The translations under genes were made by a program, and so were the position numbers. DNA of 64,000 nucleotides, from contig JABTUL010000002.1 in NCBI GenBank assembly GCA_015075425.1, positions 372,001 through 436,000 on the forward strand, in the 5' to 3' direction. Numbering within the stretch: the stretch's first letter is position 1; every line of letters starts with the position of its first letter. This DNA is from Spirochaetales bacterium (GTDB lineage: Bacteria > Spirochaetota > Leptospiria > Leptospirales > Leptonemataceae). The notes under the pieces are model-generated. The model worked only from the letters and a program-made list of their open reading frames with translations. It was not told the origin of the DNA and did not search any database. This document shows positions 5,220-23,835 of this stretch, one piece after another.

Positions 5220-5527
5220 TGATGCAGATTGTTCAGGTTTACGCGCGACCAGACTGCAAAATCTACCTGTATTTTGCGAATGGTCAAGTCCGTTTGTACG
5301 ATGCGCGGCCTCTTCTGGAGAAAGGAGTCTTTCGGGTACTGAAAGACCCTGATTTCTTCATGAATAGGTGTACCGTCATGAATGGTACGCTGGCCTGGGA
5401 TATGACCGGAAATTATGATCCGACAAAATGCCTCGATCTGGATCCGGAAGTGCTTTACCAGAATTCCATTCTTGTCGGCGATCCGCTGGCGGAAAAGGAT
5501 AGCTTGCACCAGGGCGCGGGTCGCTGA
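5216..5527 (+). CDS. DUF2442 protein
   Basis: 103 residues; starts 4 bp before the upstream stop (ATGATGATG gives two or three possible starts). The core VYARPDCKIYLYFANGQVRLYD, written here as segments, then GVFRVLKDPDFF and GTLAWDMTGNYDPTKCLDLDPEVLY, matches DUF2442. The tail after VGDPLAEKD may be extended by rearrangement at the element end. Its coupling to DUF4160 implies the two proteins act together. Confidence 0.85.
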   Translation: MMMQIVQVYARPDCKIYLYFANGQVRLYDARPLLEKGVFRVLKDPDFFMNRCTVMNGTLAWDMTGNYDPTKCLDLDPEVLYQNSILVGDPLAEKDSLHQGAGR

Positions 5528-5732
5528 GGCGCAAGAACGCTGGCGCCGGCCCACTGCTCTTGACAGCACAAAAAGAATCGCAATCGATGGAGCACGCGCA
5601 CAATTGTTATTTCTGTATCTTTCAAACGCCAGCGCAGAGTCTCGGTATCGGGACCGGGAATTTTTTACCTTCTAAGAACTTACGGACCAGTTGGCCGCTT
5701 CCCGGTCCACCGAAAAACGGGACAACTGGTTC

Positions 5733-6017
5733 TTATCGGTAGTACTGGCACGGCAAAACCCCCGATTTGATGCCCCTTAAATTTGCGCCCCCCAGAAATC
5801 GGCGGGGATTGCGCATAACGGAATGGAAGGTTCGATTTCGCAGCCGCGCAAGGATCCAGCGCTGGACAACGAGGACCGCTGTTTCGACTTTCGCCTTGTC
5901 TCTTGGCCTGCGTACCCGGGCCGGGATCACGCAGGTATTGTAATGAATGGCCAGTTCCTGGTATGCTGGATTGATTTCTGGCTCATAAAGATCGGGACTC
6001 TTGACACCACTTTTCAA
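5733..6017 (-). pseudogene. IS21-family IstA transposase fragment
   Basis: The translation contains KSPDLYEPEINPAYQELAIHY, broken here only by my wording, followed by CVIPARVRRPRDKAKVETAV and RWILARLRNRTFHS. This is the C-terminal part of the IstA catalytic core, with the PRDKAKVE signature that carries the last acidic residue. Both the start of IstA and the C-terminal region after NRTF are missing, and no istB is present. The 5' end stops exactly where repeat copy 2 begins at 6017. Confidence 0.8.
5749..5785 (-). repeat. 37-bp IS21-associated repeat, copy A
   Basis: Read on the minus strand, this 37-bp stretch matches 63752-63788 on the plus strand at 35 of 37 positions. It abuts the IstA fragment here and unrelated sequence there, so it is likely an internal or terminal piece of one IS21 lineage. 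Confidence 0.75.
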
Positions 6018-6280
6018 TCGGGTTCAGTGCACGATATTGGTTTCCAACCATTCGTGATTGATAGCTATCAGGACGGATGCTGTTCCTGAAGGTGCGTCTT
6101 AAATCCACCGGATGCTTCAGCGAACAGGCACGTCCCCGGCCGCGATGATGGAGAGGCCCAGACCATCGCCTACATGGCTGGTATTCCCATAACCGAGCTT
6201 GCCTTCTGCGCCATCGCCCCAACAGCGTGTTGCCCGGGTTGTGAGAACGGCGCAGGTGTGGCTGCTGGCCGTTACCAGAG
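6017..6280. repeat. 264-bp direct repeat, copy 2
   Basis: The second copy of 4464-4727, with two mismatches. Here the intact RCC1 gene end is preserved, while the 73-bp end of the 494-residue gene is a detached tail. Confidence 0.97.
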
Positions 6281-7484
6281 CCACGTCAGCGCCCACAGGC
6301 ACGTCACCGGCATCGACAATGTTAGGATAGATTCCGGCACCTGACCCCACCGACTGTGTGCTGTTGTAACCCAGTTTGCCATTGGTCCCGTTACCCCAGC
6401 AGCGCACTTTTCTTGTTGAAAGAAGTGCACAGGTATGATTGACTCCTGCACTGATCTGCGAAACACTCCCGCCAACCGGAACATCGCCAGCACTTATGAT
6501 GGAAGTTCCACCGGCACCAACATCGTTTACGTTGCCATAACCCAGTTGACCCAGGGATCCCTGTCCCCAACAACGCACTGCACCCGTATCGAGCAAAGCA
6601 CAGGTGTGCGCCGCTCCCAGAGAAATTTGGACAGCGCGGCCGCCAAGAGGCACATCCCCGGCAGCCACAATCGATGTTCCGCTGTCACCAACAGTGACGG
6701 TATTGTTGTAGCCCAGCCGTCCGTTGGTCCCGTAACCCCAACAGCGAACATTTCCATCACTGAGAAGCGCGCAAGCATGCTGCGATCCCGTGGCTATCTG
6801 CACCACACTGCGAGAGCTGTCTACTGTCACATCGCCTTTGGAAATGATGGAGGGGCCAACACCATCGCCGACAGTATCTGTATCGCCATAGCCCAGGACG
6901 CGATTCATTCCATCTCCCCAGCAGCGCACTTTGCCACTTACCAGCAGCGCACAGGTAAAAAGGTCGGCTGCGGCCACGGAATCTACAGTTTCACCCACGG
7001 GCACATCACTTATATTTTCTATATTGGTTGTCACGCCGCCCATGGCTGTGGAAACTGTACTGTTGTCTCCCAGCTGACCATCGTCATTGAATCCCCAGCA
7101 ACGCAAAGCCTGGTTATATACAGCACAACTGAATTGGTGGCCGGCAGATACATGCCGGGGAGAAACGCCCAGGTTCACCGGGCCGGCCGCAAGGATGGAC
7201 GGGCCAATGCCATCGCCCACAGCAGTAGTATTGTTACGCCCCAGCCTGCCGTTGCTATTGGGCCCCCAGGAGACCAGAACTCCATCAGGAAAAAGCCTCA
7301 GATTGTGTCCGTCCCGACCAATGCTGAGCTCCCCGTAGAAGGAAGAATGAGCCCCTTTCACGGGAAAAAGGGCAAAGTAGCTCAAAGGATTGCAGGACAG
7401 GTCATAAGGCAGACATTCGGGGCTTACCAGCTGACAGCCCAGAGAAAGGGCCGGTAAACAGCAAAGGAGAAGGCGACGCATCAC
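6117..7484 (-). CDS. RCC1-repeat lipoprotein
   Basis: 455 residues. The N-terminus MRRLLLCCLPALSLGC is a lipoprotein signal with lipobox LSLGC. Seven RCC1-like blades follow, each about 50 residues, marked by W-G at SWGPNSNG, RCWGFNDDG, RCWGDGMN, RCWGYGTNG, RCWGQGSLG, RCWGNGTNG and RCWGDGAEG. Each is followed by a 'LGYGNTxxVGDG' loop and an 'HTCALL' strand. The fold should be a seven-bladed propeller exposed on the cell surface or in the periplasm, suited to protein binding. The chain stops right after the last blade. The 3' end lies in the 264-bp repeat. Confidence 0.9.
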   Translation of the reverse strand: MMRRLLLCCLPALSLGCQLVSPECLPYDLSCNPLSYFALFPVKGAHSSFYGELSIGRDGHNLRLFPDGVLVSWGPNSNGRLGRNNTTAVGDGIGPSILAAGPVNLGVSPRHVSAGHQFSCAVYNQALRCWGFNDDGQLGDNSTVSTAMGGVTTNIENISDVPVGETVDSVAAADLFTCALLVSGKVRCWGDGMNRVLGYGDTDTVGDGVGPSIISKGDVTVDSSRSVVQIATGSQHACALLSDGNVRCWGYGTNGRLGYNNTVTVGDSGTSIVAAGDVPLGGRAVQISLGAAHTCALLDTGAVRCWGQGSLGQLGYGNVNDVGAGGTSIISAGDVPVGGSVSQISAGVNHTCALLSTRKVRCWGNGTNGKLGYNSTQSVGSGAGIYPNIVDAGDVPVGADVALVTASSHTCAVLTTRATRCWGDGAEGKLGYGNTSHVGDGLGLSIIAAGDVPVR

Positions 7485-16045: not shown

Positions 16046-17190
16046 TCAGGCGGCCGACCGGCCCCATTGCTGGTCCCAAGATCCGTCGTAGAGCATCTGG
16101 CGGAGCCGGATAATAGCGGATGCGCCGTCGATGGTCCATTTCATTCCGGCCTGCTTGAGCCGGGATTGGACGAGGTACTTATGAGCGCTCTCGACCGCAC
16201 CGCTCCCAATGAAGAATCCCATGCGGCGGAAATGCGGATAGCGCATCTTATCCAGGCGACTTTTGTAATAGTTGTGTAATTCAATGATTGGGGTCTGGAC
16301 TCGGGGCCGGCGCTTGGCTTCGAAGAGTAGACGTTCGCAGACCGCTTCGGCCATTCCGTTCCATAACATTTCTCGAAGTGGCTCCACCCATTCCCTGACG
16401 CTTGCGGTTTCATTCTCCCCGAAGATGGCTTTCCCGCAATTCCAGAGGTGTTCACTTGCGTGGTACCAATCCAGAATGTGCACTGACCGGGGAAAAAGTC
16501 TTTCGCGCATATGGTCCAGCCAGTCCGCGCCATCGCTTATGAAGACGATCGTTTGCGCGCGCATGCTGCCGGCTTCCGCAGCCACTCGCTTCAGGAGTTG
16601 TGCGAAGTGCTCTACGCCCTTACCGATTGATGTTGCGAAGCGTTTTTTTGTAATACGGCATATTTCTTTTCCTTTTGCAGACTTTCTCCTGATGATATCC
16701 TCTGTACGAAAAACAACTCCAACTTTTACCTCCTTGTACTCGGTTTTGAGCCGATTTTCAGGGGTTTTTCCCCGAATCGGCACCATGCCACCGTCTGCCT
16801 GAACATAGAGAATTTCTGTCTTCTCAGCAGACACCGTACCGAACTCTTTGCTTCTGTATTCATCTGCAGCACAGAATGATGCTCCATACGCCTCGGCCGT
16901 TTCGCGCAGCATAGTCTCTGTGATATCGACTTTTTCAAAGCGTCCGAGATAATGACGCGCCTGATCAAAGGGGACGGCTGCGCCCAACCAGCACAATAGC
17001 TCAGCAAATTTTCCTGACGCCGAATGAGGTGTCAGTCCGAGGATTTTCTCCAGTGGGAATTCTGTGCAGCGGCAGGATTTGTTAGTGCACGTATAATATG
17101 CACGATGAATTCCAATAACACCAGTTCGGCCCAGATTTAGTTTGCGCTCTCGAGTTCCCTGGAATTTCTGCGGGCTTCCGCATTCAGGAC
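16046..17190 (-). CDS. ISKra4 transposase, catalytic part (orfB frame)
   Basis: The frame runs without a stop from the A9 run near 17193. It begins with a zinc ribbon (CPECGSPQKF, then CTNKSCRCTEFPLEKILGL). The catalytic core follows: ILYVQADGGMVPI (Asp), TIVFISDGADWLDHM (Asp), ILDWYHASEHLW, and the C-terminal GSGAVESAHKYLVQSRLKQAGMKW segments with the Glu (AVES). The DDE layout, the DWYH motif and the 'GSG.VES..K....R.K..GM.W' motif are those of ISKra4. No start codon is placed well, so it probably depends on frameshift or slippage from orfA. Confidence 0.85.
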
Positions 17191-22526: not shown

Positions 22527-22655
22527 AAGGCAGGTTGAAAAAGCAGTCCCGGAAAGGCAATGTTTTTTAGGGAATGGGCAAATCCGGGTCATGAGTAAAA
22601 TTCACTTGACTGAACTTCACTCAAGAGCATAATTCAGTATGCTGAATCTTACCAG

Positions 22656-22847
22656 GACAAAAAGCCACTCTTTGCCGTGGAATGCAAAACAGGCGAAGGC
22701 CGACTGAGCAAACACATCCAGTATTTTCGCGATCGGACACCCATACCACAATTCTACCAGGTCCATCTGGGAGAGAAAGACTATCGGGATGGCAATGCGC
22801 GCGTTTTGCCTTTTGAGACCTTCTGGAAAGTGGCCGGAATTCCGTAG
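22656..22847 (+). pseudogene. C-terminal scrap of an AAA/DUF4143 ATPase
   Basis: 64 codons, open to the stop at 22847, with no start. The text DKKPLFAVECKTGEGRLSKH, then YFRDRTPIPQFYQVHLGEKDY and RVLPFETFWKVAGIP is the PD-(D/E)XK-like tail found at the end of DUF4143 ATPases (EVDF...ECK motif). Stops occur upstream in the frame, so the rest is lost. It overlaps nothing and ends just before ATG 22849. Confidence 0.65.
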
Positions 22848-22848
22848 G

Positions 22849-23835
22849 ATGCGGCGCCAGTATTTTTATACCATCAGGCGTTCGGGAGAGCTGGTCCACG
22901 ATGGAACCGTGCAACCGGATCCGGCCTTTCTGGATTTTTTCTTCCGGCGCCTGCACAACAATCCAGCCTGGGATGAGTCGGTCCTTTCCCCGGAAACGTC
23001 CGGTGGGCAGATCCGGAGCAGAGGGCGCGCGCTGACAGACCCGTCAGACTATCCCTTCGTTTCGCTTTGCGCGGGAGAAGAAAACTTTGTGTATTGTGAG
23101 GACGTGCCAGTGGTTTACCGCGCCCTGCGCGAAGGCCACCTCCACTATGCCGGCAGCCTGTGTGTTCCTTTCCAACCGGATGAGCTCTGGCTGTCGGCAA
23201 CGGGCCAGCTGTATCATCCAGCACCAATTGGTGCCTTGGGTCGATTGGCTAACCGCCTTTTAACGGAATTGTCCGCAAGCATCGTTTGTGAAGGAAACGG
23301 TTACGTGCTCAAGCGGGACGGGCAGCTAAACGTGATATGCTCCGGGCCAGTAGGCCCTGGCAGTCAGATGGCCGCCGTGCAGATCAAATCTTACAGCCCT
23401 CATCTGGCCGCAGCTGTTGCTTCCTTGTTTACGCTGAGTGTGCAGGCGATTGACGAGCGCTATTATACGGCGGCACAGAAAGTGGCCTGGGCGCCCGATC
23501 CGCCGGACGTGAACTACTGGGATACAAGGCTGGCCCGGAGCCTTCCCTTCCTGGCCTATTGCGACAGGCGCCTTGCGGGCTTCATGGAGCTGGAGACCGA
23601 CGGGCATATCGACTGCTTTTATGTGCATCCGGATTTTCAAGGTTGTGGAGTCGGTTCGGCGCTCCTGCATTTAGCACAGAGCCGCGCACGCCCCGGGTCC
23701 GGGCGCCTGTATCTGGAAGCGTCTCTGGTGGCCCGCCAATTTTTTGAAGAGCGCGGCTTTGTTACTCTGCATGAGAACAGGGTCATTCGCGGTGGACAAT
23801 CACTGGTAAATTTTTCCATGGAGAAAATTTTATGA
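22849..23835 (+). CDS. DUF4505 (UPF0598) - GNAT fusion protein
   Basis: 328 residues from ATG 22849. The N-terminal half matches DUF4505/UPF0598: RRQYFYTIRRSGELVHDG, FLDFFFRRLHNN, YPFVSLCAGEENFVYCED, VPFQPDELW and GQLYHPAP. The C-terminal half is a GNAT acetyltransferase fold with FMELETDGHIDCFYVHPDFQ, in segments, and the acetyl-CoA loop QGCGVGSALLHLA. DUF4505 is usually a stand-alone protein (human C8orf82). The fusion suggests that the two parts act on the same substrate. It starts 1 bp after the ATPase relic. Confidence 0.8.
   Translation: MRRQYFYTIRRSGELVHDGTVQPDPAFLDFFFRRLHNNPAWDESVLSPETSGGQIRSRGRALTDPSDYPFVSLCAGEENFVYCEDVPVVYRALREGHLHYAGSLCVPFQPDELWLSATGQLYHPAPIGALGRLANRLLTELSASIVCEGNGYVLKRDGQLNVICSGPVGPGSQMAAVQIKSYSPHLAAAVASLFTLSVQAIDERYYTAAQKVAWAPDPPDVNYWDTRLARSLPFLAYCDRRLAGFMELETDGHIDCFYVHPDFQGCGVGSALLHLAQSRARPGSGRLYLEASLVARQFFEERGFVTLHENRVIRGGQSLVNFSMEKIL

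Follow-up and report, generated by a model that had tools for sequence, protein, structure and literature searches.

The window analysed here, a stretch of 64,000 nucleotides from a Spirochaetales bacterium (contig JABTUL010000002.1, positions 372,001 to 436,000), carries at 22849-23835 on the forward strand one uninterrupted open reading frame of 328 aa, running from ATG to TGA. It is the sole DUF4505 gene of the source genome (4.1 Mb). A start at the in-frame ATG at 22789 would lengthen the protein by 20 residues, which have no likeness to DUF4505. The features of the gene are as follows.

22849..23343, + strand: DUF4505 (UPF0598) domain, residues 1-165 (Pfam PF14956, AF2 model, Foldseek, VIA-align)
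22972..23046, + strand: private insertion, about residues 42-66 (alignments; low pLDDT)
23344..23367, + strand: linker GPVGPGSQ, residues 166-173 (codon listing, three-frame translation)
23368..23832, + strand: GNAT N-acetyltransferase domain, YafP-like, residues 174-328 (Pfam, YafP identity, PDB 2fiw)
23638..23655, + strand: QGCGVG, acetyl-CoA pyrophosphate-binding signature, residues 264-269 (sequence; alignment with a relative)

An operon context for the gene was considered and rejected, as the flanking genes on both sides lie on the opposite strand and are unrelated. An open tail without a start codon (22616-22847, + strand; TSLKSIIQYAESYQ...FETFWKVAGIP) ends just before the gene; by eye it is similar to the C-terminus of an ATPase-type protein, it has no Pfam match, and it is probably a gene remnant. 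Elsewhere in the window, a 316-aa frame (16049-16996, - strand) gave a weak UPF0236 match just below cut-off (2.3e-5) and looks like a transposase.

A preliminary description of the locus had proposed that DUF4505 is fused here to a GNAT acetyltransferase. This was confirmed: profile searches matched each half to its own family model, both above Pfam cut-offs and within one frame, and the motifs that had been quoted (YPFVSLC..ENFVYCED, GQLYHPAP and QGCGVG) are all present in the protein. The N-terminal half matched PF14956 with an E-value of 4.3e-18 and 66.2 bits against a curated cut-off of 27.3, the best stretch being residues 66-146 (hmmscan). Invariance of residues was judged on 15 aligned family members, the window protein included. 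In that alignment the family motifs R-x-YFY, D-x-x-FL-x-FF and S-x-C-x-x-E-x-N, together with G131, are all found in the window protein, which keeps R3, Y5-Y7, G13, D24, F27, L28, F30, F31, N38, S72, C74, E77, N79 and G131. It differs from the rest of the DUF4505/UPF0598 family, which includes human C8orf82, in being fused to a GNAT domain and in carrying a private insertion of ~22 residues (about 42-66) that replaces the 'NDTG' turn of its relatives. The insertion region is poorly predicted, with pLDDT of about 49-69 at residues 41-60.

Residues 207-325 of the C-terminal half matched Acetyltransf_10 (4.8e-16), Acetyltransf_1 (1.1e-11) and Acetyltransf_7 (1.4e-10), all above the Pfam cut-off. 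The Q/R-x-x-G-x-G/A acetyl-CoA motif of GNATs is present as QGCGVG, and aligns with Q-x-x-G-V-G of a stand-alone relative. The closest solved relative is PDB 2fiw (E 2.4e-19). The half is 32% identical over 152 aa to Escherichia coli YafP, which is encoded in the dinB-yafNOP operon and, unlike the window domain, stands alone. The YafP equivalog NF007338 was the best NCBIfam family, but its score of 69.6 bits fell under the cut-off of 146. Judged from these comparisons, the GNAT half is YafP-like but is not YafP itself. When YafP was over-expressed in an E. coli strain without the known acetylation routes, growth was inhibited (PMC6199490). A stand-alone homologue of the GNAT half, 44% identical to it, is encoded in a related genome (G005), where DUF4505 likewise stands alone, in a gene of its own.

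DUF4505 homology extends to the last strand of the domain, at about residue 165; homology to GNATs begins at Met174 (23368), which leaves an in-frame linker of 8 residues, GPVGPGSQ. Stand-alone DUF4505 relatives terminate near the position of the join, and the GNAT half retains its own start codon, Met174. Two neighbouring genes thus appear to have been fused through loss of a stop codon. The preliminary description had named an assembly frameshift merging two genes as the result that would undo the proposed fusion. Three-frame translation revealed a TAG inside the 24-base linker, in another frame, so that two adjacent genes might conceivably have been merged by an error of one base; moreover, the GNAT fusion is known from one genome, and none of the 22 genomes sampled from the window's family is congeneric with it. 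However, the frame is unbroken, homology reaches to within about ten residues of the join on both sides, GC3 is 0.63 in both halves, and the nearby DUF389, UbiB-like kinase and riboflavin synthase genes are intact full-length frames. We therefore regard a sequencing or assembly error at the join as very unlikely. The gene most likely encodes a genuine two-domain protein.

Comparison of DUF4505 with the PDB by sequence gave no match up to E 10. The AF2 model of the DUF4505 half was predicted with a pLDDT of 89.3 and a pTM of 0.82, and a Foldseek search of 350,542 solved chains with this model returned significant matches only to the DUF1285 structures 2re3 (6e-7) and 2ra9 (3.9e-5). VIA-align gave Z-scores of 10.0 and 10.4 for the two DUF1285 structures, against 2.2 for the next row. 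DUF4505 is thus predicted to share the two-part, two-repeat fold of DUF1285 (PF06938/PF21028), its sole clear fold match. Sequence identity between the DUF1285 structures and the DUF4505 half is 14-17%, and the DUF1285 Pfam models (PF06938) found no match in the window protein or its genome. Comparison of the two family profiles gave a weak but collinear alignment (hhalign E 7.6e-4, probability 25%; hotdog control 0.47). DUF1285 and UPF0598 were stated to form one superfamily in 2010 (PMC2954204), so the fold kinship is not new, and the earlier label of DUF4505 as an orphan family is not quite right. DUF1285 differs further from the window protein in not being fused to a GNAT.

Within the phylum of the window, DUF4505 was confined to the window's own family (15 of 392 sampled genomes). 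A scan of genome contigs, which used a conserved block from an alignment of the subset of closer relatives, found five further loci, all in the Kapaibacteria/Ignavibacteria. In surveys of that group, DUF4505 was present in 19 of 395 genomes of the phylum and 40 of 391 of the class. An origin of DUF4505 in phages or plasmids was rejected, as no match was found in phages, plasmids or viral contigs.

The survey of domain architectures revealed a second fusion of DUF4505, to a thioesterase. In three genomes of one Leptospirales genus, itself a member of the window's family, a 4HBT hotdog domain follows DUF4505, and the same architecture was found in 33 of the 34 loci inspected in the Kapaibacteria/Ignavibacteria class, the exception being truncated by the end of its contig. 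The HGG(x)D/E active-site signature is kept in 35 of 36 hotdog fusions overall (32 of 33 within the class). One fused hotdog domain (locus L046, 1411-2358; the same gene is found in L034) is degenerate, with a weak score (5.9e-6) and no HGG motif, and is likely to be a non-catalytic thioesterase remnant, to judge by its sequence. The nearest solved relative of the fused hotdog domain is human THEM4 (2e-16 by sequence, and the predicted fold agrees). THEM4 and THEM5 are human mitochondrial acyl-CoA thioesterases. They are the closest solved relatives of the hotdog domain that is joined to DUF4505 in these other bacteria; the solved human chains, however, lack a DUF4505 part, and the window protein lacks the hotdog. 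As nearly all relatives have hotdog genes that stand alone, the mere presence of such genes is uninformative.

Stand-alone DUF4505 genes of the Leptospirales adjoin a rhodanese gene, SufB and others, with no CoA genes among them. The rhodanese protein, which has a DUF1858-like start, is often accompanied by a small lipoprotein (L017-L021, L025), and SufB lies near the DUF4505 gene at L016, L024 and L029. Directly upstream of DUF4505-thioesterase genes, a gene resembling D-aminoacyl-tRNA deacylase is found at L035 and L037 (both 5457-6894), where the two genes overlap, and at L040 (5365-6873). At seven other loci (L113, L115, L117, L118, L121, L123 and L124), an arginyl-tRNA synthetase gene recurs upstream of the thioesterase fusion and a metallophosphoesterase-like membrane protein recurs downstream.

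A branch with 97/93 support divided a tree of 36 DUF4505 domains into all 24 hotdog-fused rows on the one hand and the window row with 11 stand-alone rows on the other. This separation indicates that the GNAT and thioesterase fusions are separate events; on this tree, DUF4505 appears to have acquired two CoA-using partners independently. The copy in the Leptospirales genus with the hotdog fusion probably came from the Kapaibacteria/Ignavibacteria side.

The window fusion might nevertheless be accidental, the DUF4505 stop codon having been lost beside a GNAT gene, with the two domains functionally unconnected. Both GNAT and hotdog domains often occur in fusions. Because GNATs in particular are common and promiscuous, a GNAT fusion seen in one genome says little by itself, and the two fusions of DUF4505 could be coincidental. 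The position of the join, where stand-alone DUF4505 proteins end, the retention of Met174 and the separate homologues of both halves in a relative all fit an accident of this kind. Conserved residues have, however, been kept in both halves, and the independent fusion likewise pairs DUF4505 with an enzyme acting on CoA thioesters. We consider a chance fusion improbable.

The DUF1285 family offers clues to the ligand. Its members have a conserved inter-domain cleft, for which a nucleotide-type ligand has been predicted (PMC2954208). As the cleft lacks strictly conserved residues, binding rather than catalysis is indicated (PMC2954208). In most genomes, Nudix hydrolases are encoded beside DUF1285 (PMC2954208). 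The present analysis identified the Nudix gene as a CoA pyrophosphatase, scoring over the cut-off of NF007980, and in 17 of 26 plasmid or chromid records, covering 7 alphaproteobacterial genera, DUF1285 lies directly upstream of a homologue of this enzyme. The two genes share an overlap of 4 bases in Rhizobium and Sphingomonas, where a gene for CCA tRNA nucleotidyltransferase comes next. DUF1285 and the CoA pyrophosphatase thus form an apparent operon. By tblastn, no CoA pyrophosphatase was found adjacent to DUF1285 in five records from Paracoccus and four from Acinetobacter; at one Acinetobacter locus (L142, 1557-4067), electron transfer flavoprotein-ubiquinone oxidoreductase adjoins DUF1285 in its place.

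The CCA-adding enzyme at the end of the DUF1285 operons, and the genes for D-aminoacyl-tRNA deacylase or arginyl-tRNA synthetase that commonly lie upstream of the thioesterase fusion, would suit a module of tRNA quality control, the GNAT acting on aminoacyl-tRNA. Yet the upstream tRNA genes are not the same from group to group and appear to reflect local synteny, and thioesterases have no usual role in tRNA quality control. We think it most improbable that the module serves this process.

The preliminary description had taken the GNAT fusion as a link between DUF4505 and acyl-CoA chemistry. That fusion is weak evidence when taken alone, and it is the thioesterase fusion and the CoA pyrophosphatase beside DUF1285 that now lend substance to the link. 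CoA is common to both fusions and to the DUF1285 operon, and the simplest reading is one in which the domain of this superfamily binds either CoA or acyl-CoA. As the likeliest reading, we suggest that DUF4505/DUF1285 is a non-catalytic module that binds CoA or acyl-CoA and is tethered, in the window protein, to a GNAT. The YafP-type GNAT half would transfer acetyl from acetyl-CoA to an acceptor. The DUF4505 half would hold CoA, an acyl-CoA or a nucleotide derived from CoA within the cleft that separates its two sub-domains, and would either sense CoA status or position substrate for the tethered enzyme, acting on the attached GNAT in a regulatory manner. In other bacteria, the same module is attached to an acyl-CoA thioesterase resembling THEM4, and genes of the related DUF1285 family share an apparent operon with CoA pyrophosphatase. 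Since both kinds of enzyme domain are common in fusions and no CoA genes adjoin the DUF4505 genes that stand alone, we hold this reading tentatively, at slightly less than an even chance.

Alternatively, the fusion is real and DUF4505 serves in redox or stress signalling by binding another nucleotide or cofactor (a signalling nucleotide, NAD or FAD, for example), with the GNAT and the thioesterase as effectors. The DUF1285 structure paper, which proposed a nucleotide ligand and a role in oxidative-stress signalling, makes no mention of CoA (PMC2954208). Among the sites matched by the cleft of 2re3 in a similarity search were those of FAD, NAD, heme and cobalamin, as well as the acetyl-CoA site of thiolase 1dm3 (PMC3892921). 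The SufB (Fe-S assembly) and rhodanese genes beside stand-alone DUF4505 copies are likewise consistent with a redox-related ligand. Against this, the substrates of both fused enzyme classes, and of the Nudix enzyme encoded next to DUF1285, are CoA or its thioesters. We regard a ligand other than CoA as rather unlikely.

The DUF4505 and GNAT domains are each known. In the literature searched, no paper named DUF4505 and only five named UPF0598; in the papers found, neither the DUF4505-GNAT nor the DUF4505-THEM4-like combination has been described, nor has the CoA pyrophosphatase partner of DUF1285 been put forward in support of CoA binding. C8orf82, the human member of DUF4505/UPF0598, is a protein of no known function that has been catalogued in the mitochondrial matrix (PMC7066081). 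Three separate associations, namely the GNAT fusion, the THEM4-like fusion in two phyla and the CoA pyrophosphatase beside DUF1285, point to one class of ligand, and this idea is directly testable by binding assay, for human C8orf82 too. It is possible, if doubtful, that DUF4505/DUF1285 is a hitherto unrecognised sensor of CoA, joined on several occasions to enzymes using, cleaving or destroying CoA or its thioesters, or expressed together with them; C8orf82 would then be its stand-alone form in animals.
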